A stretch of 24,838 nucleotides of DNA from a virus. Under the pieces are notes generated by a model. That model was not told where the DNA came from. It saw nothing but the letters and a program-made list of their open reading frames with translations, and did not search any database. The position numbers and the translations under genes were made by a program. Below, in pieces: positions 3,683 to 16,244 of the stretch; position 1 is the first letter of the stretch; each line of letters begins with the position of its first letter. The stretch spans positions 1-24,838 of IMG/VR virus record IMGVR_UViG_3300007734_000505. One strand, 5' to 3'.

Positions 3683-5542
3683 TTAGATAAACGTACGATC
3701 TTTTTCTGCGAGTAGCTCATCTATATTGATGACCATTCGCTTGCCCTGTTCATAACGAGACAGGAAAGGGTTTTTCATATGATGGGTAGCGTGAATACCT
3801 TGGTTGAGCATTTCACGTGCTCTAATCTCACAGAACCACAGAGCCATTACCATATCGGTCTTGCCTTTAGTACTAGGTGACCAGGTAATTAATTGTTCAA
3901 TGAGCGCCTTAATGTTTTCAGTTTGATCTGAAGGTAAGTGAATAAGGTTATCGCGGTGGTGCTTTCCGTCGTGCTGCTTGGTTCCAAACAAAGTTGACAT
4001 TGATGCAACACCAAAGCCTGAGTCCCACTTGTTGTTTCCAGTATGGTGTTCGCGCAATAGCACTCCTCGTGAGGCTAAGTTTGCACGGATACCTTCATCT
4101 TGAGTTAAGAATGATTGAAATGCGTTCTTTTCTACTATCCACTCACTAGGACTATAGAGGTTAGTCCAGTCAAAAATTAATTGACGGATTTGAGCAGGTG
4201 TTGGCCTAGTGATTTTAATAGCATCAACAACATAGCGTTTATGTGTAACCCTATCAACAGCGTAACAAACGGCGGCTGTATCACCCACCATAGCGGGATC
4301 AAGACCACAAATAAAAGAAAAGCCGTTGACATCACGCGGATGGCCTGGGTTACCAGGAACCAAACGACCTGCTTTACGCATACCATCAATAGAACCTCTT
4401 ACACACGCTGGGTCAAAGATGGCATCATCTGAGATATCTTGTTGTTGGTAAACCAACGCCCACGTAGATGCATCCATCGCTTGACGTTCGTTGTAGAGGT
4501 TACGACCATTCCAACGTGGGTATAGTCCATCCTCATTCAAATCTGATTCTAACTGTCCATCAAAGGGAGCATCGGATGCTGGCCATAGGGTAACCCACTT
4601 ATCGGGGTTTTCATCTGTTTCTAATAAAGCTGGCATTGCTAGGTACTTCCAAGGGACTAGACCGCCTGGGTATCTATCTGGGTTACGCAGTTCTCGATAG
4701 AGGTCAACTGCAGCAACGCGGGTACCAATAATAATCAATTTACCAGTAGGGTTTAGACGAGAACGTACGTCCTGTGTCAACCATTTGATCTGGCGTTCAA
4801 ACTCGTTAGCGTTCTTAAGAGTTACCGCGTCATCTACGATAATCATATCGGCACGCTTGCCGTAGATTTGACCGCCAATACCGACGGCTTCAATGTTCGG
4901 GTCTTTTTCAGATGACTCACGTAGTTCATCACCAAAGGTGATACGGGTGGCCTGCCACGAGGCCGACTTAGAGTTAAACCCTACGCCAGCAGCATAAGCA
5001 TTTTGAAGGTTTTCATACATTGGGTGAGTCAAACGCTGCTTGATGGCGTAGAGAAAGTCTGCGGCTAGTTGCTGAGTCTGGGAGACTATGAGCACTCTAA
5101 AGTTAGGATTACGAGCTACCTGCCAGGTTACGTAGTCTACTGTGATTGTGATGGACTTTGCGTGGTTTGGCGGGATGTTGATAAGGATACGGTTATTGGC
5201 TAGGCCCTGCTCAAATTTCATCGAAGGGTGTAGCCACGTAGGTTCAACGCCTTCAATCATATCCACTAGGTTTTGTTGATGAGGGAAGGTCCTAGAGTTG
5301 AGAAAGCGTTGGCGGAAATCTGCGAATGTGATGTCGTGGACATCGGAGGTAGCAAAGGATTTGTCCTTTAGCCCAAGGCGGGTTCTATCAACCTTGTCTG
5401 TAAATATCTTATCGGTGCGACGATAGTACTCATAAGTCTTATAGGATTTACCAGCCGATAGACAGGCTTGTTCAATGGTCATACCTTCAGCTACGGCACT
5501 AAGGATAATGCGCTTTGCTATATCTGCTGAGTTTTCAGCCAT
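3683..5542 (-). CDS. terL: Terminase large subunit (packaging ATPase-nuclease)
   Basis: A 619-residue DNA-packaging motor. The ATPase half shows a deviant Walker A (PPNHAKS, residues about 124-130), Walker B (MIIVDD, 233-238) and a coupling motif (IIIGTR, 270-275). The nuclease half has the RNase-H-like acidic triad: D415 in GLDPAMVGD, E471 in WIVEKNAFQSF and D563 in KGKTDMVMA. Residues about 10-50 form a helix-turn-helix-like segment (MTIEQACLSAGKSYKTYEYY) resembling small-terminase or recombinase DNA-binding domains. The start is ATG with AGGAG 7 nt upstream. It heads the leftward head operon, with the portal 9 nt downstream. No separate small terminase is visible in the window. It cuts concatemeric DNA and pumps it into the prohead through the portal. 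Confidence 0.96.
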   Translation of the reverse strand: MAENSADIAKRIILSAVAEGMTIEQACLSAGKSYKTYEYYRRTDKIFTDKVDRTRLGLKDKSFATSDVHDITFADFRQRFLNSRTFPHQQNLVDMIEGVEPTWLHPSMKFEQGLANNRILINIPPNHAKSITITVDYVTWQVARNPNFRVLIVSQTQQLAADFLYAIKQRLTHPMYENLQNAYAAGVGFNSKSASWQATRITFGDELRESSEKDPNIEAVGIGGQIYGKRADMIIVDDAVTLKNANEFERQIKWLTQDVRSRLNPTGKLIIIGTRVAAVDLYRELRNPDRYPGGLVPWKYLAMPALLETDENPDKWVTLWPASDAPFDGQLESDLNEDGLYPRWNGRNLYNERQAMDASTWALVYQQQDISDDAIFDPACVRGSIDGMRKAGRLVPGNPGHPRDVNGFSFICGLDPAMVGDTAAVCYAVDRVTHKRYVVDAIKITRPTPAQIRQLIFDWTNLYSPSEWIVEKNAFQSFLTQDEGIRANLASRGVLLREHHTGNNKWDSGFGVASMSTLFGTKQHDGKHHRDNLIHLPSDQTENIKALIEQLITWSPSTKGKTDMVMALWFCEIRAREMLNQGIHATHHMKNPFLSRYEQGKRMVINIDELLAEKDRTFI

Positions 5543-5743: not shown

Positions 5744-5772
5744 AGGCAGGAATAAAAAGTCATTTCCTGCCT
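5744..5772. repeat. Inverted repeat, 9-bp arms (AGGCAGGAA / TTCCTGCCT)
   Basis: Perfect 9-bp arms at 5744-5752 and 5764-5772, with an 11-nt A-rich loop. It lies just upstream of the rightward promoter at 5786. It could be a repressor or replication-protein site, or a weak hairpin in leftward leader RNA. Confidence 0.55.
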
Positions 5773-5782
5773 ATGGTATAAA

Positions 5783-5818
5783 GTATTTACAGAATGTGAC
5801 TAACGTCACTATAAATAC
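5783..5818. promoter_or_regulatory. Nested dyad over the promoter, containing a CRP/GlxR-like site
   Basis: Outer arms GTATTTA (5783-5789) and TAAATAC (5812-5818) are exact reverse complements and overlap the -35 and -10 boxes. The inner arms give GTGA-N6-TCAC (5796-5809), preceded by T, so TGTGA-N6-TCACT. This is one base off the TGTGA-N6-TCACA consensus of CRP-family regulators, which in Actinobacteria include GlxR. Binding in the -35/-10 spacer would be expected to repress. A phage-encoded dyad-binding repressor is an alternative. Confidence 0.6.
5786..5815 (+). promoter_or_regulatory. Sigma70-type promoter firing rightward
   Basis: TTTACA (5786-5791) and TATAAA (5810-5815), separated by 18 bp. 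Both are 5/6 matches to the housekeeping consensus. It points toward the plus-strand small-ORF block. The first supported ORF starts at 6449, so a transcript would carry a leader of about 625 nt through the hairpin array unless another promoter exists nearer. Confidence 0.55.
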
Positions 5819-5839
5819 GGTACAAAATAGGACATTAAT

Positions 5840-5857
5840 AAGTGATCTGGTTCACTT
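5840..5857. promoter_or_regulatory. Second CRP/GlxR-like dyad (AAGTGA-N6-TCACTT)
   Basis: Perfect 6-bp arms, AAGTGA and TCACTT, around TCTGGT. The core again reads GTGA-N6-TCAC (5842-5855). Its centre is 46 bp from the first site and about 25 bp downstream of the predicted transcription start, a position suited to a roadblock or cooperative repression. A further 7-bp inverted repeat (TGTAGTG / CACTACA, 8-nt loop) follows at 5871-5892. Confidence 0.55.
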
Positions 5858-5870
5858 TAGGAAATATATC

Positions 5871-5892: not shown

Positions 5893-6448
5893 CACGTACT
5901 AAACTTAACACCGTAGGGTCTCCTCGCCGTACCCGTGGCCGATACCGTAACCGACGGCCCGCATTCTGCCCCGTACCGTACCGTTAGCAATTCCCGACGG
6001 GTAGGCTCCCCTTCTGGCACGGGGATCCCTGTATCAATTGCCCAAGCTGTATTAATAAACCCGCCTAACGAATAGCCCAAGGCCTAGCGATAACCCCAAG
6101 GATCTAGGGCCTCACGGCCCTACCGATTACCCAAGGCCTCACGCCTTACGGCTCAAGGCCTAACCCTTCACGGCTCTATTGATCCACGGGCCAGAGCTTT
6201 ACGGGCCAGAGATTACGGCCCAAGCCTTCGGCCTCCTTGCTTACCTTGGATCATTCGGGCCTTCGGCCCCTTAGATCTGGCCCAGCTTTACCCCTTCGGG
6301 CCTTGGATCTGGCCCCGTCTAGCCTCTTGGAGCTTGGGACACGTGGCCAGAATCTGGCCCCTTATATGTCTTCCCTATGGGGTAACGTATGGCATAATAA
6401 TCACGTGAAGAGGATCTGCCTCCTCACTCTAATAGTTAGGATCTAGTT
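5893..6448. other. Gene-free stretch holding repeats and hairpins
   Basis: About 550 nt with no ORF I can support. The part to about 6070 has repeated CCGTACC/GTACCG words and GC-rich segments. The part from 6105 to about 6370 is the hairpin array described separately. Just before the first ORF there is CATAAT (6393-6398), with a poor -35 (TTCCCT) 16 bp upstream. That makes a weak candidate promoter nearer the block. Two ORFs overlapping this stretch were considered and rejected because they lack ribosome binding sites. Confidence 0.5.
6105..6370. repeat. GC-rich chain of short hairpins and degenerate repeats
   Basis: Contains many small stem-loops. Perfect ones are TAGGGCC-TCAC-GGCCCTA (6105-6122), AAGGC-CTCAC-GCCTT (6133-6147) and GGGCC-TTC-GGCCC (6257-6269), with smaller GCC-TTC-GGC (6224-6232) and CCC-TTC-GGG (6292-6300). 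ACGGGCCAGAG occurs twice in tandem with a 15-nt period (6186 and 6201), and GATCTGGCCC-type words recur at about 6275, 6307 and, as AATCTGGCCCC, about 6351. A second AAGGC at 6155 could compete with that at 6133 for the same GCCTT. The units are too degenerate and too close for CRISPR. It may be a structured RNA leader or a replication/packaging recognition region. Function is unknown. Confidence 0.6.
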
Positions 6449-6577
6449 ATGTCACGCGATTATGAAGAAGTAAATTATCTAAGCACGTGCGAATCTTGCA
6501 ACACTTCACACGGGTATTGGTTTGGTACTACGTGCGGATATTGTGGCCACGTAAATAATAAGAAGGAGAATATCTAA
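6449..6577 (+). CDS. Small zinc-ribbon-like protein (42 aa)
   Basis: First ORF of the rightward block. It starts MSRDYEEVNYLSTCESC and carries two CxxC knuckles, C14/C17 and C29/C32, with a following His, spaced as in a minimal zinc ribbon. It therefore probably binds Zn and may contact nucleic acid or a host protein. Only a weak AGGA precedes the ATG. The TAATG overlap with the next ORF supports coupling. No family is recognised beyond the knuckle pattern. Confidence 0.7.
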   Translation: MSRDYEEVNYLSTCESCNTSHGYWFGTTCGYCGHVNNKKENI

Positions 6578-6741
6578 TGAAATTCTTATTGTTTATCGCT
6601 AGTTTATTGCCCGCATATCTTTACTCTATTCTCTCCACGGTAACGATTACGTTAGAGAGTACTCTTGCAATTATTCTAATCTCACTCCTCTCACTCTCTA
6701 TTGTGGGAGCTATTGCAACACTATCGAAGGGATCTAACTAA
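6577..6741 (+). CDS. Small two-helix membrane protein (54 aa)
   Basis: Starts at the ATG in TAATG and ends in another TAATG. GAAGGAGAA lies just upstream as the SD. Hydrophobic segments lie at residues about 2-20 (KFLLFIASLLPAYLYSIL) and about 28-48 (STLAIILISLLSLSIVGA), with very few charges, so it is predicted to be an inner-membrane hairpin. It could be a holin-like protein or a membrane effector such as a superinfection factor, and the early-type context favours an effector. That is inference. Confidence 0.65.
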   Translation: MKFLLFIASLLPAYLYSILSTVTITLESTLAIILISLLSLSIVGAIATLSKGSN

Positions 6742-7133
6742 TGAGCACAATTGAAGAGCTAGGCGCACAATTGGAAGATATTAAGGCTAAGAGTTGCGAG
6801 GCCAGAATTGAAGGCCAGTTGAAAGATCGCGAGAAGGATCTTCGTGATCTCTTTGCTATCGCCGACGATTACGAAGGCGACGAAGATTTAAGAGATCAAG
6901 CTAACGGTGAAATTTACGAATTCGCCTATGGTTATGAGACTTACAAGGTAACCCGCCTAACGTGGAGCGGAGGAGGCCCCGCCGATTGGATCGAAGTGCA
7001 ACACGATAGCAACGGGATCCGTCGCATTGATTATGTCTTCCAAGATTGGTACGACGGGGCTAGGCGTGAAGTGAAAGAAGGCTCCCCTGTATGGCGTTAC
7101 GCCTCAATTATGCTAGACGGCTTGGAGGCTTAA
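6741..7133 (+). CDS. Acidic hypothetical protein (130 aa)
   Basis: Starts at ATG inside TAATG. The N-terminal third is a charged helical segment (STIEELGAQLEDIKAKS, then KDREKDLRDLFAIADDYE), probably coiled coil. The C-terminal part is aromatic and folded-looking, with YKVTRLTWSGGGPADWIEV and a DYVFQDWYDGARRE motif. No catalytic pattern is recognised. It is among the longer proteins in a block of small acidic ORFs and probably shares their regulation. Confidence 0.75.
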   Translation: MSTIEELGAQLEDIKAKSCEARIEGQLKDREKDLRDLFAIADDYEGDEDLRDQANGEIYEFAYGYETYKVTRLTWSGGGPADWIEVQHDSNGIRRIDYVFQDWYDGARREVKEGSPVWRYASIMLDGLEA

Positions 7134-7135
7134 CC

Positions 7136-7279
7136 GTGGAGAAGATCACCAAGCGCGGGGCATTCGTGTTAGGCGTGGCCGTGGGCCTTCTAATCGTTGG
7201 GGCCTTCTGGCTTATGGGTAATTATTGGGTAACCGATTCGGGAATATGTATCGGATCTATGGCGGAGTGTAATCTCTAG
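7136..7279 (+). CDS. Small single-span membrane protein (47 aa)
   Basis: I chose GTG at 7136 because a clean GGAGG sits 7 nt upstream (7124-7128). An earlier in-frame ATG at 7091 lies deep inside the preceding gene without an SD. The N-terminus is basic (EKITKRG), followed by one hydrophobic helix, FVLGVAVGLLIVGAFWLMG (about residues 9-27). The short tail holds two Cys (ICIGSMAECNL). Predicted to be membrane-anchored with the tail outside. Function unknown. Confidence 0.65.
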   Translation: MEKITKRGAFVLGVAVGLLIVGAFWLMGNYWVTDSGICIGSMAECNL

Positions 7280-7285
7280 GAGCGT

Positions 7286-7361
7286 ACTATCTCGCACGGC
7301 TTAGGCCGTGCGCGGTAGTCTGCCACTAGGGGCAGATCTTAAACCTTGGAAGGGGTTAATT
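7286..7361 (+). promoter_or_regulatory. Structured leader A (hairpins plus CCTTGGAAGGGGT box)
   Basis: Starts with ACTATCTC, then a perfect stem GCACGGC-TTAG-GCCGTGC (7294-7311), a second stem CTGCC-N6-GGCAG (7320-7335) and the 13-mer CCTTGGAAGGGGT (7344-7356), whose GGAAGGGG is the SD of the ORF at 7362. The same order of CTATCTC, hairpin and identical 13-mer occurs at 8099-8173. It is one of only two real gaps inside the plus-strand block. It could be an RNA processing, attenuation or translational control site. Confidence 0.6.
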
Positions 7362-7517
7362 ATGAAATATGAGAAGAATCGGGTTAGTCTTGTGGATCTA
7401 TCCACGGGCGAAGAGATCGTTAGCGCGGAGCTAACCGCGCCACGGGTGAAGGCTATCGTGAAGGCCTACGCCTTAGCGGGGATCACACTAGGGCAGAAGG
7501 AGCGGGTGAGTGCGTGA
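7362..7517 (+). CDS. Hypothetical protein (51 aa)
   Basis: ATG 7362 is preceded by GGAAGGGG at 6-7 nt spacing, as part of structured leader A. An upstream in-frame GTG at 7308 falls inside the leader hairpin and is unlikely. The protein begins MKYEKNRVSLVDLSTGEE. It looks like a small beta-beta-alpha unit (a strand pair, then APRVKAIVKAYALAG) and ends in GTGA overlap with the next ORF. No family recognised. Confidence 0.65.
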   Translation: MKYEKNRVSLVDLSTGEEIVSAELTAPRVKAIVKAYALAGITLGQKERVSA

Positions 7518-7618
7518 GTAATCAAGAGCTATTGAAAGCTTTACAGGAGGCGGGAATTGTGCAGATTATCCCCGTTGGATCTTATGAGCAAGAAGAGAAG
7601 GGGGAGGAGAGTGAGTAG
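7514..7618 (+). CDS. Very small acidic peptide (34 aa)
   Basis: GTG start in GTGA overlaps the previous stop by 4 nt. The sequence runs SNQELLKALQEAGIVQIIPV and ends in a Glu/Gly/Lys-rich tail (EQEEKGEESE) created by the SD-like purine run of the next gene. The predicted amphipathic helix (residues 3-15) could mediate binding. It overlaps the next ORF by 8 nt (GTGAGTAG). Tiny, but it fits the exact spacing rules of its neighbours. Confidence 0.5.
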   Translation: MSNQELLKALQEAGIVQIIPVGSYEQEEKGEESE

Positions 7619-7757
7619 AGAATTGGAAGTGTTACGCGAGGAGTATTGGAGGGTGAGAAGTAATCCTTACTTCGAAGATCCCGCTAAGAATGGCATTCTA
7701 TTAGATCTCATAATCAATAGAATTGAAGTATTGGAAGGGGAGGAGAAGAGTGAATAA
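7611..7757 (+). CDS. Small helical protein (48 aa)
   Basis: GTG at 7611 gives the 8-nt overlap also used by neighbouring pairs. An in-frame ATG at 7584 would add a Lys/Arg-rich extension that is really the purine-rich SD of this gene read in frame. The body, SRELEVLREEYWRVRSN followed by GILLDLIINRIEVLEGE, looks like a helical hairpin or coiled coil. The acidic tail again overlaps the next gene's SD. Function unknown; the start choice is uncertain. Confidence 0.55.
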   Translation: MSRELEVLREEYWRVRSNPYFEDPAKNGILLDLIINRIEVLEGEEKSE

Positions 7758-7941
7758 CGGAGCTTGGACACTAGGCCGTGAGCGTGAGATCCAAGGGGCC
7801 ACGCTCCTAGACGATAACGATAGATTCTACTTAGAAGTGGAGGGGGAGAGACGGTACGGTTACCGTACTCACCTATCTGGCACTTACGTATGCTTTACCG
7901 ACGGCCACTTATGCGAATGCGGAGAGGAGGGGGAAGAGTGA
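7750..7941 (+). CDS. Hypothetical protein with Cys pair (63 aa)
   Basis: GTG 7750 has GGAGG 6 nt upstream and overlaps the previous stop by 8 nt (GTGAATAA). The in-frame ATG at 7723 is poorer. The protein looks beta-rich: WTLGREREIQGATLL, YLEVEGERRYGYRTH, then TYVCFTDGHLCECGEEGEE. Three Cys and a His near the C-terminus could bind metal. It ends in an acidic SD-encoded tail. It resembles a small OB/SH3-like fold by texture only. Confidence 0.6.
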   Translation: MNNGAWTLGREREIQGATLLDDNDRFYLEVEGERRYGYRTHLSGTYVCFTDGHLCECGEEGEE

Positions 7942-8063
7942 TAGGAGATACGAAGGAGGAGATCGTTACACAGTTGAATGATCTTATCTACGGCGACGAT
8001 CCTTATAGCTTATCCGACATAGAAGATATAATCGGAGACGGGGATCTATTCGAGTACTTATAG
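7938..8063 (+). CDS. Highly acidic small protein (41 aa)
   Basis: GTG in GTGA overlaps the previous stop by 4 nt, and GGAGGGGGAAGA precedes it. It has 12 Asp/Glu against a single Lys in 41 residues, net about -11. The order is TKEEIVTQLNDLIYGDD, then SLSDIEDIIGDGDLFEYL, suggesting two short acidic helices. Such charge density is typical of DNA-mimic inhibitors, but no homology is claimed. It ends just before structured leader B. Confidence 0.6.
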   Translation: MIGDTKEEIVTQLNDLIYGDDPYSLSDIEDIIGDGDLFEYL

Positions 8064-8098
8064 GATAAGATACGGTAAGGTAAGGCAATAGCGGTTAG

Positions 8099-8173
8099 CT
8101 ATCTCTCCTCCTCCACGGGCAGAAGTGGAGGGGGAGGGAGGGTGAATCGCCCTACAACTACCTTGGAAGGGGT
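8099..8173 (+). promoter_or_regulatory. Structured leader B (12-bp hairpin plus CCTTGGAAGGGGT box)
   Basis: CTATCTC at 8099, then a hairpin with 12-nt arms (8105-8116 and 8125-8136; one T-G pair, 8-nt loop GGGCAGAA) and the same 13-mer CCTTGGAAGGGGT (8161-8173) as leader A. The distance from CTATCTC to the 13-mer is 62 nt here and 57 nt in leader A. Different stem sequences with the same layout suggest the structure itself is what is kept. Confidence 0.6.
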
Positions 8174-8179
8174 ATAAGA

Positions 8180-8758
8180 ATGAAAGAATACGTAGTACGC
8201 CGTTACTCATTCTCCGAATTGAATGAAGAGGCACGTGAGAAGGCGATAGACGATATACAGAGACACCTTCTTGAATGGCTAAGTGAGCGAGAGCTTACCG
8301 ATTACCTAGAAGGTAAATTAGAAGAGGATCTAGGATCCTTACCCGAAGACATCACTATTGCCTACTCTCTTAGTTACTGCCAGGGAGACGGCGTGGCACT
8401 ATATGGCAGAATCTACAAGCGCGAGGCTCCAAGCCTTACGTGGCCAGAAGGATCTTATTATGTAGATCTAGTACGCAATTCTTGGAGTAATCATTACTCT
8501 CACTACAATACTTTCAACGTGGAGCTAGGTAATGAGAATGCTGAACCCATTGACTTATCTGGATCTCATATTGAAGAGCAACTACGTACTCTATGCAAGA
8601 AATTAGAGAGACTAGGCTATAAATATATAGAGAATGAAACTAGCCGTGAAAGTGCTATTTCATTCTTGAAAGATCAAGAGTCAGAAGAAGAAGGATCATT
8701 CTTAGACGACGGCACTAGAGATCTACCCCGTGGAATTGTGCAGAAGGTGAGCGCATAA
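8180..8758 (+). CDS. Conserved-looking phage protein with QGDG motif (192 aa)
   Basis: The longest protein of the block. It starts MKEYVVRRYSFSELNEEARE, the common opening of a family of phage and plasmid proteins with an aromatic SFxELxxEAxxKA segment. It also carries YCQGDGVALYG (about residues 66-76), the family's most recognisable motif, and a later aromatic YYVDLVRNSWSNHYSHYN region. The biochemical function of that family is, to my knowledge, not established. ATG 8180 has GGAAGGGG upstream in leader B. The C-terminus is acidic (DQESEEEGSFLDDGTRD). Confidence 0.75.
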   Translation: MKEYVVRRYSFSELNEEAREKAIDDIQRHLLEWLSERELTDYLEGKLEEDLGSLPEDITIAYSLSYCQGDGVALYGRIYKREAPSLTWPEGSYYVDLVRNSWSNHYSHYNTFNVELGNENAEPIDLSGSHIEEQLRTLCKKLERLGYKYIENETSRESAISFLKDQESEEEGSFLDDGTRDLPRGIVQKVSA

Positions 8759-8916
8759 TGAAAGATTATGTAGTGCTAGTTACTTTAAGGAATGAAGCGA
8801 TCTCACTAGGAGCCGATAGTGATAGCGAGGCCTTATCACGGGCCAAGCTCATAATTGCAGAAGAGTATGGAGATAGCGTGGCGAATGACGCCACCTACGA
8901 ATTGGAGGGTGAGTAA
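8758..8916 (+). CDS. Acidic small protein (52 aa)
   Basis: Starts at ATG in TAATG and ends in TAATG, so it overlaps one base at both ends. The sequence, DYVVLVTLRNEAISLGADSD then EALSRAKLIIAEEYG, looks like a beta-alpha-beta unit. Twelve acidic and four basic residues. The tail ELEGE is encoded by the GGAGGGTGAG SD of the next gene. It resembles the ORF at 9350 in general build (a strand, then an alpha with ALSRAK or AEAMNI), so the two may be diverged paralogues. That is inference. Confidence 0.65.
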   Translation: MKDYVVLVTLRNEAISLGADSDSEALSRAKLIIAEEYGDSVANDATYELEGE

Positions 8917-9203
8917 TGAGTGAATACGATTACAACGTTATCTTTACGGGTAACTATTGGAGCTTAACTACCAAGATCTCCATTGATATAGACGATACGA
9001 CGGGTAATCTAAGTGATGATAGCCGTGAGCTAGCGTTAGATAGGGCTAATGAGGCTATTCGTGGTGAGCTTGGAATAGATCCTATTAATTTCGCTCACTC
9101 TACTAACGTGGCATTACTACTAGACGACGAAGAAATCTGGCTTGAAGGGTTAGGCGAATACCCGCCTATCCACGTATCGGTAATAGAAGAGGAGGGTAAG
9201 TGA
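8916..9203 (+). CDS. Acidic hypothetical protein (95 aa)
   Basis: ATG in TAATG, with GAGGGTGAG as SD. Begins MSEYDYNVIFTGNYWSLTTK, followed by an Asp-rich region (IDIDDTTGNLSDDS), a helix (ELALDRANEAIRGEL) and a C-terminal strand pair. The tail IEEEGK is encoded by the next gene's SD. Strongly acidic overall, with no metal or catalytic motif seen. Translationally coupled to both neighbours. Confidence 0.7.
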   Translation: MSEYDYNVIFTGNYWSLTTKISIDIDDTTGNLSDDSRELALDRANEAIRGELGIDPINFAHSTNVALLLDDEEIWLEGLGEYPPIHVSVIEEEGK

Positions 9204-9346
9204 TGTTAAAAGATACAGTAATAAATGAATTGGAAAGCGTGCGACAAGAGATAGAGAGTGATGATGAGCAAGAGAGAGCCTTACTAGAGGGTTGGGAGAA
9301 GGCTTTACTATGGGTACTACGCAAGATAGAGAGCGAGGAAGGGTAA
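9203..9346 (+). CDS. Acidic helical protein (47 aa)
   Basis: ATG overlaps the previous TGA by one base (TGATG), with GGAGGGTAAG upstream. The protein is nearly all helix: KDTVINELESVRQEIESDDE then ALLEGWEKALLWVLRKIE. It has 14 acidic and 6 basic residues with regular hydrophobic spacing, so it is probably a coiled coil or helical hairpin. Function unknown. Confidence 0.6.
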   Translation: MLKDTVINELESVRQEIESDDEQERALLEGWEKALLWVLRKIESEEG

Positions 9347-9349
9347 GTG

Positions 9350-9523
9350 ATGAATACTTATAGGGTTACGTTAGAAGTGGATTATATAATCAAGGCAACT
9401 AGCCTTGCCGAAGCTATGAATATCGTGAATGAAGATAGCGAACACCCGCTAATTGGTGGCGTGTCAGTAGGTCATTGTGATAACACCCGTGTAATTGGCG
9501 GATCAATAGTAGAGGGGGAGTAA
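9350..9523 (+). CDS. Hypothetical protein (57 aa)
   Basis: ATG 9350, with GGGTAAG upstream, shortly after the previous stop. A GTG directly before the ATG is an alternative that would add one residue. The protein reads NTYRVTLEVDYIIKATSLAEAMN, a beta strand then a helix, followed by a Gly/Val-rich second half with one Cys. It ends in VEGE from the SD of the next gene and hands over by TAATG. No family recognised. Confidence 0.6.
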   Translation: MNTYRVTLEVDYIIKATSLAEAMNIVNEDSEHPLIGGVSVGHCDNTRVIGGSIVEGE

Positions 9524-9663
9524 TGAATCAAGAATCAATGAGCTGGAGTGAGATAGCGCAATTGACACACGCTACCCAAGTGGAGAATTTTGATTGGTGT
9601 TGGTGTGAAGATAATGAAGGTAATGAAAATCCATATAGCGACTGTCCGAAGGAGGAGAAGTAA
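9523..9663 (+). CDS. Small Cys/Trp-containing protein (46 aa)
   Basis: ATG in TAATG with GAGGGGGAG upstream. It begins MNQESMSWSEIAQLTHATQV, followed by a WCWCED motif (C26, C28) and C41 near the C-terminus, a possible metal knuckle. The tail PKEEK is encoded by the AAGGAGGAGAAG SD of the next gene. Acidic overall. No family recognised. Confidence 0.6.
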   Translation: MNQESMSWSEIAQLTHATQVENFDWCWCEDNEGNENPYSDCPKEEK

Positions 9664-9896
9664 TGAAAGAACATCACTATGTAGTTAGCTGGAGTGAGAA
9701 GAGCGGGTGGAGTATCAATACGGATATGGAAGAGGGGGCATTCCCTAATGGAAGTATCTTCGATCACGACACTAACGAATGGGAGTATGCCTATAACGGC
9801 GACGGGGAATGGGAAGAGAATGAGCAAGAGCTAACCGAAGAATTGCAGTCTATTCTGGATCTGCATAACGAACATAATGGAAAGGTAACACTATGA
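9663..9896 (+). CDS. Strongly acidic, Trp-rich protein (77 aa)
   Basis: ATG in TAATG with a strong GGAGGAG SD. It contains 19 Asp/Glu and only 3 Lys, no Arg, and four Trp, giving a net charge near -16. The sequence has beta-like stretches (YVVSWSEKSGWSIN, EWEYAYNGDGEWEE) and an acidic C-terminal helix. This profile matches known nucleic-acid mimics in a general way (acidic, aromatic, small), but homology is not claimed. It overlaps the next ORF by 4 nt (ATGA). Confidence 0.65.
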   Translation: MKEHHYVVSWSEKSGWSINTDMEEGAFPNGSIFDHDTNEWEYAYNGDGEWEENEQELTEELQSILDLHNEHNGKVTL

Positions 9897-10135
9897 AAGA
9901 AGAGGGATCAGTAACGCACGTGGTAACGCTAGTAATCCAAGCGGGATCTAAGTGGAATAAGGTAGAGCTATTCGATTTTAGCGGTGGCGAACCTACCCCG
10001 TTAGCTTCGGGTGAGGGAAGCAATTGGCGAACGGCGTTAGGTGAGGCATTATCTAAGATCACGCTATCATCAGACACGCCAGAGAAGAGCGTGAGCGACG
10101 TAGTGAAGGAGATCAAAGAGGAGGAGGGTGAGTAA
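9893..10135 (+). CDS. Hypothetical protein (80 aa)
   Basis: ATG in ATGA overlaps the previous stop. Strand-rich N-terminal half (THVVTLVIQAGSKWNKVELFD), a Gly/Pro loop, then a helix (WRTALGEALSKIT) and an acidic C-terminal helix (SVSDVVKEIKEEEGE), whose end is the next gene's SD. The arrangement looks like a small alpha-beta domain. Function unknown. Confidence 0.65.
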   Translation: MKEEGSVTHVVTLVIQAGSKWNKVELFDFSGGEPTPLASGEGSNWRTALGEALSKITLSSDTPEKSVSDVVKEIKEEEGE

Positions 10136-10350
10136 TGGGATATGAGCCAGAGCTTAACGATCCTATCTTCTATGAAAATGAAGAAGAGGATAATGAGATC
10201 AAGTGCTTTTTATGTTCAGAGCCACTAGATCAAGACGAAGTAGTATGGGCAGACTGTGAAGGCCAATGGCAAGTGAGAGGGAAAGAGGGTAACGATACTG
10301 CGTGGTGCGTATCGTGCTTACCAAGCGAGAAGGGTGAGAGTAATGAATAA
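10135..10350 (+). CDS. Acidic zinc-ribbon-like protein (71 aa)
   Basis: ATG in TAATG. CxxC pairs at C24/C27 and C58/C61, plus C41, give a treble-clef or zinc-ribbon-like arrangement with a beta-rich centre. It has 20 acidic residues against 4 basic, net about -16. The combination of a Zn knuckle with a highly acidic body suggests protein-protein interaction or nucleic-acid mimicry rather than DNA binding. It overlaps the next ORF by 8 nt (ATGAATAA). Confidence 0.65.
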   Translation: MGYEPELNDPIFYENEEEDNEIKCFLCSEPLDQDEVVWADCEGQWQVRGKEGNDTAWCVSCLPSEKGESNE

Positions 10351-10510
10351 AGAATACTGGCTAGCTAAGGCAGAATTATGCCGTGATCTGGCATTGATCC
10401 AGATACAAGAAGAGGAGACGGAGAAGGAGGCGGGGATGAACCTAATGAGAATGACCTACGCATTGTCTATGGTAGATGTATATTCAGAAGGGCAGGGGGA
10501 GAATGAGTGA
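10343..10510 (+). CDS. Acidic helical protein (55 aa)
   Basis: ATG at 10343 with GGGTGAGAGTA upstream. It is predicted mostly helical: KEYWLAKAELCRDLALIQIQ, a Glu-rich turn (EEETEKEAG), then NLMRMTYALSMVDVY. It is rich in Met and Leu, so perhaps a helical bundle or coiled coil. The tail EGQGENE comes from the SD of the next gene. It overlaps that gene by 8 nt (ATGAGTGA). Function unknown. Confidence 0.6.
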   Translation: MNKEYWLAKAELCRDLALIQIQEEETEKEAGMNLMRMTYALSMVDVYSEGQGENE

Positions 10511-10754
10511 TGTAATTGCATTCCACCCACGTGTATCCACGCTTGTGAATCTATATGAGATAGTAGATGGGAAGGGTGAGGCAATTTGGGGTGGCAACGA
10601 TACGCACGAAGCTATTCGATATCTACGCAATAGCCCTGTCAATTGCAGGATCCTTGTATCGGGCTGGGAGAGTGACGAGGAAGATGCTCACCTAGTGGGC
10701 CAACCCATTGACATAACCAAATTGGTCTATGCCGTATTAGCGGTGAATCAATGA
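10503..10754 (+). CDS. Hypothetical protein (83 aa)
   Basis: I chose ATG 10503, preceded by GGGGGAG; the in-frame start at 10476 lies inside the previous gene with no SD. The protein has an alpha-beta texture: STLVNLYEIVDGKGEAIWG, then THEAIRYLRNSP and CRILVSGWESDEED. The YEIVDGKGE-helix-R-VSGWE build is reminiscent of small phage proteins with a modified ferredoxin-like fold, but I cannot name one. It ends in ATGA overlap with the next tiny membrane protein. Confidence 0.65.
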   Translation: MSDVIAFHPRVSTLVNLYEIVDGKGEAIWGGNDTHEAIRYLRNSPVNCRILVSGWESDEEDAHLVGQPIDITKLVYAVLAVNQ

Positions 10755-10834
10755 GCTATGTCTTGGGTTTATTAGCCGTAATGCTGGTGGCATATGCCCT
10801 CATTGTATGGGAGAATAATATCAATGGAGAATGA
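10751..10834 (+). CDS. Miniature single-span membrane protein (27 aa)
   Basis: ATG in ATGA overlap. Nearly the whole peptide is one hydrophobic helix, SYVLGLLAVMLVAYALIVW (residues 2-20), followed by a polar tail, ENNINGE. Predicted single transmembrane segment. Its position just before the transglycosylase-like gene raises the possibility of a lysis role, but size and context alone cannot show it. No strong SD, so translation would depend on coupling. Confidence 0.5.
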   Translation: MSYVLGLLAVMLVAYALIVWENNINGE

Positions 10835-11108
10835 GAAGCGATTGGCGAGTGCTGCAAAGCAGGCCGTCTATTACCGCAACTATCGAAGAGCAAGGGATCG
10901 CGCCCTGGTGAAGTTGGCACAAACCTACCCAGACGCATATAAAGAATTGCTGGAGAAGGAGAAGGTGAGTGATGAGCAAGAAGGCAAAGCGTGGATTGAT
11001 CTTAACGGTACTACTATTAGTCCTCGTATCGTTGCACGTGCAAAAGCTAGGGGAATTACCCTTACCCAAACCGATACAAACCAAGGCAACAATGGAGGAG
11101 AAGGTTGA
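10824..11108 (+). CDS. Basic helical hypothetical protein (94 aa)
   Basis: ATG 10824 is preceded by GGGAG at 9 nt; the longer frame from 10794 runs through the preceding gene. A helical basic segment (KQAVYYRNYRRARDRALVKL) is followed by AQTYPDAYKELLEKEK and a short C-terminal region with SPRIVARAKARGITLTQ. The RRARDRALVKLAxxYPxxYKELL pattern is familiar to me from small actinophage and actinobacterial proteins of unknown function. Its last 137 nt are shared with the transglycosylase-like ORF in another frame. It ends GGEG in the SD of a TTG-started ORF. Confidence 0.65.
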   Translation: MENEKRLASAAKQAVYYRNYRRARDRALVKLAQTYPDAYKELLEKEKVSDEQEGKAWIDLNGTTISPRIVARAKARGITLTQTDTNQGNNGGEG

Positions 11109-11397
11109 GAACAAACGACTCGCATACAAGTTTAGTAAAGCTCTCGGATATACGAGAGCAGAAACGACGTGCCTTATACGACTTTGGTCCCGTGAATCCC
11201 GCTTCGACCACCTTGGTTTCCCAAAGAACTCTAAGGGCAAACCAGCTTCGTCAGCTTTCGGAATTGCTCAGCTCCTTGGAGAACGTAGTAGAGAGCCTGA
11301 ACTACAAATCCTTCACGGTCTACGATACATTGAGCACCGCTATTCAGGAAGTGCGTGTCGCGCTCTCAGACACAGCAACAGACGTGGATGGTACTGA
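10972..11397 (+). CDS. Membrane-anchored lytic-transglycosylase-like protein (141 aa)
   Basis: ATG 10972, preceded by AAGGTGAG. The N-terminus is a basic signal-anchor, KKAKRG followed by a hydrophobic run LILTVLLLVLVSLHV (residues 8-22), then a linker and a C-terminal domain matching the SLT lysozyme-like pattern: CLIRLWSRESRFDH with Glu in RESRF as likely catalytic acid, SSAFGIAQLLG, GLRYIEHRYSGSACRALRH and a final GWY. This enzyme class cleaves the glycan strand of peptidoglycan at the cell envelope. It could serve in lysis or cell-wall remodelling early in infection. Its first 137 nt overlap one ORF and its remainder another, in different frames. A shorter start at ATG 11092 lacks an SD. 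Confidence 0.75.
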   Translation: MSKKAKRGLILTVLLLVLVSLHVQKLGELPLPKPIQTKATMEEKVENKRLAYKFSKALGYTRAETTCLIRLWSRESRFDHLGFPKNSKGKPASSAFGIAQLLGERSREPELQILHGLRYIEHRYSGSACRALRHSNRRGWY

Positions 11398-11407
11398 TAT
11401 AATCTGA
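11105..11407 (+). CDS. Possible overprinted helical protein (100 aa), in another frame over the transglycosylase
   Basis: Frame from TTG at 11105, in TTGA overlap with the previous gene and with GGAGG 5 nt upstream. The product is helical: RTNDSHTSLVKLSDIREQKR, then TLRANQLRQLSELLSSLENVVESL, and a Thr/Asp-rich tail. Codon use and the coupled start resemble the block, yet the entire frame lies under the transglycosylase-like ORF. Either both frames are translated or this one is a chance open frame of 100 codons. I favour neither strongly. Confidence 0.35.
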   Translation: MRTNDSHTSLVKLSDIREQKRRALYDFGPVNPASTTLVSQRTLRANQLRQLSELLSSLENVVESLNYKSFTVYDTLSTAIQEVRVALSDTATDVDGTDII

Positions 11408-12021: not shown

Positions 12022-12173
12022 ACTTCACCATTTCCAACCCCAGAATGTCCTTCCCAACCTTGCCTTTTGTGAATAGAACTATTTTTAGAATGACGATTTA
12101 ATAATTTTTCTAATTGAAGTTCCGTATTAGCATTTATACTTACACCACAAATACACTTAAAGCTGTATGTCAT
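12018..12173 (-). CDS. Small CxC protein (51 aa)
   Basis: ATG 12173 overlaps the preceding stop by ATGA and its own stop overlaps the next start by ATGA. It begins MTYSFKCICGVSINANTELQ, a strand with C7/C9, followed by a basic helical region and a Gly-rich end (HSGVGNGEV). The opening resembles half of a zinc ribbon, with the second Cys pair missing, so metal binding would need a partner or other ligands such as His28, His35 and His43. Function unknown. Confidence 0.6.
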   Translation of the reverse strand: MTYSFKCICGVSINANTELQLEKLLNRHSKNSSIHKRQGWEGHSGVGNGEV

Positions 12174-12802
12174 TGCCACGGGTTGTCACCGCCTAAACCA
12201 TTCTGCACCTTGCGTAGTGCGCTGGTGCATCTACGATCTGCAGTAGATACTGCACACTCTAAAACGTGCGCTACTTGTTGCAAGGTCTGACCCTCGTGGT
12301 AGCGCATACGAAGTATGGTCTGGTCTTCTACTTCAAGATTTAAGTATGAACGCTTGACATCAATCAAGGTAGCAAGCAGGTTGCCACCTTCTGCTGGAAC
12401 GCTAGGTTTTTTAGGAGAGCCATCATTGATGAGGTTCTGAGCCTGTTCTAACACCGTATCATCAACTATAGATGCAATAACGTGTGGCAATACTTGTGCA
12501 ATCATAGCTGTATCGTAGAAGGCTTCATCACCTGTGCGATAGCCAGACTTGGCGGCCTTCTCTTTGCGAGCATAACGCTCAGCAGTACGCTTCATCTGCC
12601 AAGCTATACGCTTCTCATTGATAACACGTTGGACTGGATTAGGTTCATTAAGCATCTCATCAAACTGTTTGCCACGTGTTAATGCCCAAGCAAGGCACTC
12701 TTGCAGGACATCATCTCGTTCTACGTAGTTACGAAAGCGACGTGCTATTGCACTAGCAACGCTGGGTGCTATGTCGTAAATAGATTTATGTAGTTCAGTC
12801 AC
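12170..12802 (-). CDS. Sigma-factor-like protein (210 aa)
   Basis: The N-terminal part resembles sigma region 2 (SAIARRFRNYVERDDVLQEC, residues about 17-36). The C-terminal part has a region-4-type helix-turn-helix: EDQTILRMRYHEGQTLQQVA, then HVLECAVSTADRRCTSALRK (about 159-199). The middle is a charged helical linker. This order is that of an ECF-type or phage sigma homologue, which would direct RNA polymerase to phage late or middle promoters. It is co-transcribed with primase and nuclease genes. A DNA-binding regulator that borrowed the sigma fold is an alternative. Starts in an 8-nt overlap with the preceding gene. Confidence 0.7.
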   Translation of the reverse strand: MTELHKSIYDIAPSVASAIARRFRNYVERDDVLQECLAWALTRGKQFDEMLNEPNPVQRVINEKRIAWQMKRTAERYARKEKAAKSGYRTGDEAFYDTAMIAQVLPHVIASIVDDTVLEQAQNLINDGSPKKPSVPAEGGNLLATLIDVKRSYLNLEVEDQTILRMRYHEGQTLQQVAHVLECAVSTADRRCTSALRKVQNGLGGDNPWQ

Positions 12803-15147: not shown

Positions 15148-15982
15148 CGTACGTACTCTCCTCGCTGTTGCTACGCAGGTAGGCCCTACCTTGCGCATCA
15201 TCATCGCCTATCTGACAAGAACCAAAGTCTACAAATAGAGATGCCCATTGTGAAGCATCTGCATAGTGTGGACCAAAACGATTCTTGACTGATGCTATCC
15301 GAAGCAGGCCCTGTGAAGGATCATACCCAAGCGTAAGGATAAGAGCTGGTAGTTGACTCACCTTTCCGTGAATAGCACGTCTAGGTGGTGGCATCATAGG
15401 AGAACCATACTCGCTCTGTTCGCTTACGTGATGGAGTACAAGCACACAAGCCTCAGTCTTACGTGCCATATCGTGCAACTCCATCATAATTGCACGAAGT
15501 CCAGCCCATTCATTATCTGTCTCTGCTGCCACATTCATTAGGTTGTCTATGATAATCAACTCTGGCATCACACCATAGAGTTCTACATAGGCTTTAATCT
15601 CCATCTCAATATCATCAAGAGACGGACTGGAGTCAAAGACCCACTGAATATGAGAAGCTTTAGTTAAATAAGAATCGTAGTGGCGCTGACTTTTATTGAT
15701 GTTACTTTCGACAGTCACTTGTGTGTGACCTGAAAGATGAGCAGCAGCACGAATCATTACTGTTGCTGTGTCTGTATCAGCAGAAAAGAATAACGTTGGA
15801 ACTCGTGCTTTGATTGCGTATATCAATGCGAACATTGACTTACCAGCATTAGGTGCAGCAGCGACCATACAGACTTGGCCTCGACGGAACTTGACAGAGT
15901 GCTTAACTAGATTTTTCCACACGTCAGGTAGTGGTGTGGCTTTGGTAGTCACACCGCCCCAAGCACGGGAAAGATTAAGCAC
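15137..15982 (-). CDS. RecA/DnaB-type ATPase (replicative helicase-like)
   Basis: 281 residues. GTG start at 15982 in an 8-nt overlap, with AGGAG upstream. Walker A is AAPNAGKS (residues about 42-49) and Walker B LIIIDN (142-147), followed by VLVLHHVSE (180-188) and a C-terminal strand with a likely Arg finger (NRFGPH). The fold is that of the RecA/DnaB hexamer core. Lacking the DnaB N-terminal domain, it could be a compact replicative helicase or a RecA-like accessory ATPase. It is encoded between WhiB and the nuclease/primase genes, which favours a replication role. Confidence 0.8.
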   Translation of the reverse strand: MLNLSRAWGGVTTKATPLPDVWKNLVKHSVKFRRGQVCMVAAAPNAGKSMFALIYAIKARVPTLFFSADTDTATVMIRAAAHLSGHTQVTVESNINKSQRHYDSYLTKASHIQWVFDSSPSLDDIEMEIKAYVELYGVMPELIIIDNLMNVAAETDNEWAGLRAIMMELHDMARKTEACVLVLHHVSEQSEYGSPMMPPPRRAIHGKVSQLPALILTLGYDPSQGLLRIASVKNRFGPHYADASQWASLFVDFGSCQIGDDDAQGRAYLRSNSEESTYGAI

Positions 15983-16244
15983 TCTTCTCCTCTTCCAATT
16001 TTATTCGTCGTTGATTGCGTATCTGCCTTCGCTCACTATCGGTAAGACCGCCCCAGATTCCAAAACGTTCCTTACGGATGCCCCACTCAGCACATTCAAC
16101 GATGTGTTGACAGCCACGACATATTGATTTTGCTGATGCAATGCTCAGACGTACAAGCTTGCCTTCGTTTTCCTTTTCAGGAAAGAAAAGATCTCCACCT
16201 ACCTGAGCACATAAAGGAACCTCAAACTCGTGTGGTTCCCGCAT
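15975..16244 (-). CDS. WhiB-like [4Fe-4S] transcription regulator
   Basis: 89 residues. Cys at 12, 42, 45 and 51, in CRGCQHIVEC spacing, bind an [4Fe-4S] cluster in WhiB-like proteins. GIWGG (62-66) forms the conserved beta-turn, and the C-terminal Arg/Lys-rich segment (RRQIRNQRRIK) is the DNA-binding part. Wbl proteins bind the housekeeping sigma factor region 4 and are almost confined to Actinobacteria and their phages, so this gene is the best evidence for the host. In phages they can modify host transcription or block superinfection. Here it is part of the leftward replication operon. Confidence 0.93.
   Translation of the reverse strand: MREPHEFEVPLCAQVGGDLFFPEKENEGKLVRLSIASAKSICRGCQHIVECAEWGIRKERFGIWGGLTDSERRQIRNQRRIKLEEEKSA

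Follow-up and report, generated by a model that had tools for sequence, protein, structure and literature searches.

The question raised by this locus is whether a phage promoter carries an operator that is read by a CRP-family regulator of the bacterial host. The window, i.e., the complete stretch of 24,838 nucleotides of viral DNA analyzed here (IMG/VR record IMGVR_UViG_3300007734_000505), contains exactly two exact copies of GTGA-N6-TCAC. Both are located in the long non-coding stretch that extends from the gene for the terminase large subunit (3683..5542, minus strand; phrog_38, E 1.9e-64), positioned left of a divergent control region, to a rightward block of small ORFs (6450..11407, plus strand) that lies downstream of the candidate operator and is presumed to be early; nearly all genes of this block are without a PHROG or Pfam match. 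Dyad 1 occupies positions 5796-5809 (GTGACTAACGTCAC) and dyad 2 positions 5842-5855 (GTGATCTGGTTCAC), 46 bp apart, just as a sequence-only reading of the window had described them, and dyad 1 with its flanks (TGTGACTAACGTCACT; 5795..5810) was likewise confirmed to be a single mismatch away from TGTGA-N6-TCACA. When one mismatch is allowed, GTGA-N6-TCAC finds 11 matches in the window versus 10 expected, and the evidence for the dyads from this single sequence could hence be due to chance. It is the comparison with relatives that shows dyad 1 to be far beyond chance; its exact core and its conservation are the basis on which we annotate it as a putative Crp/GlxR-type operator.

Dyad 1 constitutes the spacer of a putative rightward promoter, whose -35 element TTTACA (5786..5791, plus strand) and -10 element TATAAA (5810..5815, plus strand) are separated by 18 bp; these assignments rest on the sequence itself, and additionally on a conserved upstream TTT in the case of the -35 element and on a TAnnTA pattern of the family in that of the -10 element. 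A larger GTATTTA/TAAATAC dyad (5783-5789 and 5812-5818), which the sequence-only reading had considered as an outer frame around dyad 1, is present in the window, and is intact in only about six of the 21 nearest relatives when these are read from the sequence listing. Because of this poor retention it appears incidental, and the notion that it is a functional unit was dropped. The interval between the terminase gene and dyad 1 contains an inverted repeat (GGCAGGAA...TTCCTGCC; 5745..5771), identified from the sequence, whose stem is retained and whose loop varies in a large group of relatives; it is possibly a terminator or a second operator.

The relatives of the window were collected as viral contigs through the terminase as anchor gene, and 83 of the loci span the region of interest. 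Dyad 1 is present in all 83, 74 times as an exact copy and nine times as a homologously positioned copy with a single mismatch, while its spacer is free to vary (22 forms across 58 distinct site sequences), so that its conservation exceeds that of the neighbouring sequence. The eight arm bases are invariant (100%) in the 58 distinct sites, but this value is fixed by the search pattern itself; the outer T was not part of that pattern and is conserved to 93%, and the flank is A/T. Among all palindromic tetramer dyads found 200-800 bp upstream of the terminase, GTGA-6-TCAC is the one with the most distinct spacers, a ranking that holds in both phage families studied here. The TTT upstream of dyad 1 is conserved to 88-97% in the 58 distinct window-family sites, and the family also retains TAnnTA at dyad positions 17-22. 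Dyad 2 fares differently. Both of its arms occur in the closest group only (L002-L020), whereas the other window-family groups keep just its right arm, embedded in TTnACTTTAG[CG]AAATAT; this arm is overlapped in the window by an element (TTCACTTTAGGAAATAT; 5851..5867) that is kept in all groups of the family. Of the two dyads, dyad 1 alone is conserved across the relatives, and a paired operator with a fixed 46-bp spacing is not supported; dyad 2 is probably fortuitous, or else a weak site peculiar to its lineage.

As judged by the terminase, the closest named relatives are the phages LanE43-AprE7 and AprF5 (E7 and F5; 46-47% identity), which were isolated on Ca. Planktophila (PMC10202952). 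Both carry TGTGAGTTACATCACA in the same intergenic region. In 99.8 kb of DNA upstream of the terminase from 80 relatives of F5, GTGA-N6-TCAC occurs 88 times, compared with 0-7 times for the same half-sites at 12 other gaps. An exact TTGACA box is found downstream of the dyad in this sister family at distances of 11, 12, 22 and 32 bp (15, 24, 11 and three cases, respectively), and none was found on the opposite side of the dyad. These steps of 10-11 bp keep the dyad in helical phase with the box, as would be the case for the binding site of an upstream activator. Many of the sites precede further promoters within the early block, and the site of the sister family most likely serves in the activation of several early promoters.

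Several other features of the sister family should be recorded. In its early promoters, the TTGACA box is enclosed by nested inverted repeats (AGCCC...CCCTTGACAGAGGG...GGGCAC) that recur before several genes; they were seen in L297, L302, L305, L336, L349 and others, 1000-2600 bp upstream of the terminase. In F5/E7 (L082, positions 16115 and 16192; L083, position 2478), conserved sequence begins at the dyad and diverges beyond its other side, as if the dyad marked a recombination boundary. By eye, TTTAGCAAATATAACAG near the terminase gene of E7/F5 looks like the counterpart of the window element at 5851-5867, and the TTTAG[CG]AAATAT counterparts upstream of the terminase in these two phages (L082, L083) are followed by a terminator-like hairpin.

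Which sign of control the site exerts in the family of the window is a separate matter. Among 39 distinct window-family sites, the most frequent fit, seen in 18, is one in which the -10 element of the best-scoring promoter follows the dyad by 0-4 bp. A Crp protein bound to a dyad within the promoter spacer would cover the spacer, an arrangement that favours repression. The rightward promoter that the sequence-only reading had rated as good is recognizable by its two elements on either side of dyad 1, but it matches the consensus weakly, and the L323 subgroup possesses the dyad but not the promoter flanks. The most serious alternative accepts dyad 1 as a Crp site and lets it activate early transcription in the window family as well, from a further promoter. 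The geometry of the sister family, with its helically phased TTGACA boxes, speaks for such a role, as does the consideration that a host factor that is always present is more natural as an activator for a lytic phage, for which it would be odd to place an early promoter under a constitutive repressor of the host. Against it stand the lack of TTGACA in the window family at the offsets used by the sister family (11/12, 22 and 32 bp), distances from the dyad to the conserved elements that vary without helical phase, and the position of the dyad within the spacer in the most frequent promoter fit. On balance, we lean slightly towards repression at the window-family site, hold activation of another promoter to be a possibility of clearly lower probability, and regard any other outcome as unlikely. 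Leftward activation of the terminase operon was also considered and rejected: the distance between the dyad and a conserved TATATA shifts by about 16 bp between groups, which does not correspond to whole helical turns.

Who might read this site? A WhiB-family protein is encoded in the window (16020..16217, minus strand, inside the ORF 15975-16244; PF02467, E 4.8e-17), 22 of another 29 phage records encode one as well, and among 14 control genomes the WhiB model matched that of Corynebacterium only; the possession of WhiB by the phages consequently points to actinobacterial hosts. A sigma-like protein (phrog_354, Sigma70_r4) is encoded at 12170-12802 on the minus strand of the window, so that the phage's own transcription factors comprise this protein and WhiB, besides the putative site for the host Crp. 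A search for hosts via relatives of the terminase in 84,980 genomes found none. Sixteen complete genomes of 1.2-1.5 Mb, chosen from an even sample of the class, were taken to represent the likely hosts. All 16 contain a rhodopsin gene, and Nanopelagicales carry rhodopsin; to judge by size, rhodopsin, class and GC content, the sampled genomes very probably are those of Nanopelagicales, and we infer that the phages infect bacteria of this kind.

Each of the 16 complete genomes yielded one match to the CRP of Mycobacterium tuberculosis at E <= 0.001, a search that diverged Crp/Fnr paralogues would escape. The residues that correspond to positions 186-194 of the M. tuberculosis protein, its recognition helix, are unchanged in 30 of 30 Crps from small genomes of the sample; the Crp of the likely hosts carries the RETVNK helix, which is expected to read GTGA. 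No HTH_Crp_2 domain (PF13545) was found in 28 phage records. A CRP-family protein, whose presence in the host the sequence-only reading had presupposed, thus exists in the likely hosts, and that reading's assignment of dyad 1 to the Crp/GlxR-type operators gains credence from the conservation of the site, the actinobacterial stamp that WhiB puts on the phages, the identity of the helix in the host Crp and the lack of a phage-borne Crp domain in the records searched.

A scan of the likely host genomes for the motif revealed that it is avoided there. Perfect TGTGA-N6-TCACA sites are too rare to be scored per host genome, and the eight-base core was consequently used together with spacing controls. 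In the genome G104 (1,431,431 bp), GTGA-N6-TCAC occurs once, whereas each of 30 other gaps between these half-sites gives 12-46 copies (25 on average); with one copy seen and 24 expected, no other gap-6 tetramer pair for which at least eight occurrences are expected is depleted as strongly. In 800 kb of G152, three copies contrast with a mean of 12 at other gaps. Spacing controls were confined to these two genomes, and for the others the avoidance rests on a reversed-pattern control: across the 16 complete genomes the dyad is present 1-9 times and the reversed pattern 11-45 times, while in a Mycolicibacterium genome the dyad is found 100 times and the reversed pattern 31 times. When a single base in one half-site is changed, the depletion weakens by degrees. 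It is still strong after changes at half-site position 4 (0.29-0.41 of expected), and it is not detected with C at position 3 or with C or G at position 2. The avoidance of exactly this dyad by the likely hosts points, independently, to a factor in their cells that reads it. The sole exact copy in G104 (position 637905) is intergenic and resides within a longer palindrome (GAGGTGAAACGGATCACCTC).

We suggest that dyad 1 is probably an operator for the host Crp, a GlxR-like protein, in the divergent control region of phages of Nanopelagicales. Their hosts would be freshwater Nanopelagicales with a Crp that recognizes TGTGA-N6-TCACA; as the phages appear to bring no Crp of their own, the reading would be left to this host protein, which is predicted to bind between the terminase-led operon and the early-gene block. 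In the sister family, the same site, on the same helix face upstream of the TTGACA boxes, would activate several early promoters; in the window family, Crp bound in the spacer of the putative rightward promoter would hold this promoter back.

Two other candidates for the reader of dyad 1 deserve consideration. The dyad could be the operator of a repressor or activator from another protein family that is encoded by the phage and reads GTGA-N6-TCAC by coincidence. The motif is indeed conserved among the phages and present in multiple copies in the sister family, as phage operators often are, and many phage proteins are without an assigned family; yet the motif equals the CRP/GlxR consensus down to the outer T/A, the 28 phage records yielded no Crp domain, and a regulator of the phage would not explain why the likely hosts avoid the dyad. 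We consider this explanation quite unlikely. Very unlikely, in our view, is a different host reader, be it a further Crp/Fnr-type regulator or a nucleoid protein that shares the motif. With M. tuberculosis CRP as the query at E <= 0.001, the search would have overlooked a diverged paralogue, but a single match was obtained in each of the 16 complete genomes, and the matched protein possesses the very helix expected to read GTGA. That the dyad is a restriction/modification site, a thought prompted by its strong and spacing-specific avoidance in the likely hosts, which resembles restriction-site avoidance, is hardly credible, as the phages have not lost the site but retain it in fixed positions and at helical offsets before -35 boxes, and the partial avoidance of single substitutions fits graded binding rather than all-or-none recognition.

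If the host Crp does read dyad 1, the avoidance invites a further, tentative proposal to which we give somewhat less than even credence. The genomes of Nanopelagicales may have been largely purged of the consensus Crp site, perhaps through binding by cAMP-free Crp, and the phages may employ full-strength copies of it as a control of their early genes that is nearly private to them. It would then be in phage DNA, and not in the host's own, that this global regulator of the host finds its strongest sites.

The sequence-only reading had also envisaged that a cAMP-type regulator ties infection to the nutrient state of the host. The 16 complete likely host genomes yielded neither a class III cyclase (PF00211) nor a CYTH protein (PF01928), while both models match in the Corynebacterium control. 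The residues of the cyclic-nucleotide pocket are largely kept in the Crp of the likely hosts. Since neither of the two cyclase classes was detected in these 16 genomes, the proposed link between nutrients and cAMP lacks support.

Control of a phage promoter by the host Crp has been shown for the enterobacterial phage T1, whose pir promoter is repressed by E. coli cAMP-CRP (PMC6737242), and is what we propose here. In T1, control by cAMP and glucose was established by experiment; the present case differs in its actinobacterial hosts, in the two cyclase classes that were not found, in the deep conservation of the site in two phage families and in its avoidance by the host. The operators of GlxR and of M. 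tuberculosis CRP in Actinobacteria share the motif TGTGA-N6-TCACA, and the 30 Crps of the likely host group retain residues 186-194 of M. tuberculosis CRP; the motif exceeds its reversed control in Mycolicibacterium, however, and is avoided in the likely Nanopelagicales hosts, where full-strength copies sit in the phages instead. A promoter with sites for a host regulator is also described for phage GIL01 (PMC4551915), a case that concerns LexA, the SOS response and a temperate phage, rather than Crp. Freshwater actinophages are known to carry WhiB and sigma factors (PMC10202952). These belong to the same phage groups and are likewise means to manipulate host transcription, but they are phage-borne proteins, whereas in the case of dyad 1 the phage carries the DNA site alone. 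We found no report of host-CRP control in actinophages in the open-access literature.

Nanopelagicales rank with the most abundant bacteria of fresh water. Their phages have been cultured only recently (PMC10202952), and a putative host-regulator site that two phage families share and the likely host avoids offers a concrete, testable entry to early gene control. The dyad could furthermore serve as an in-silico marker by which uncultured phages are assigned to Nanopelagicales hosts, and it may be an instance in which the best binding sites of a global regulator reside in its viruses.

Finally, about 540 bp of non-coding DNA (5900-6440) separate the operator candidate from the first rightward gene of the window. 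No Rfam family matched above its gathering score around the dyad site. The 5900-6440 segment is rich in short GC palindromes (GGGCC/GGCCC) and folds slightly better than shuffled sequences (z -2.1).
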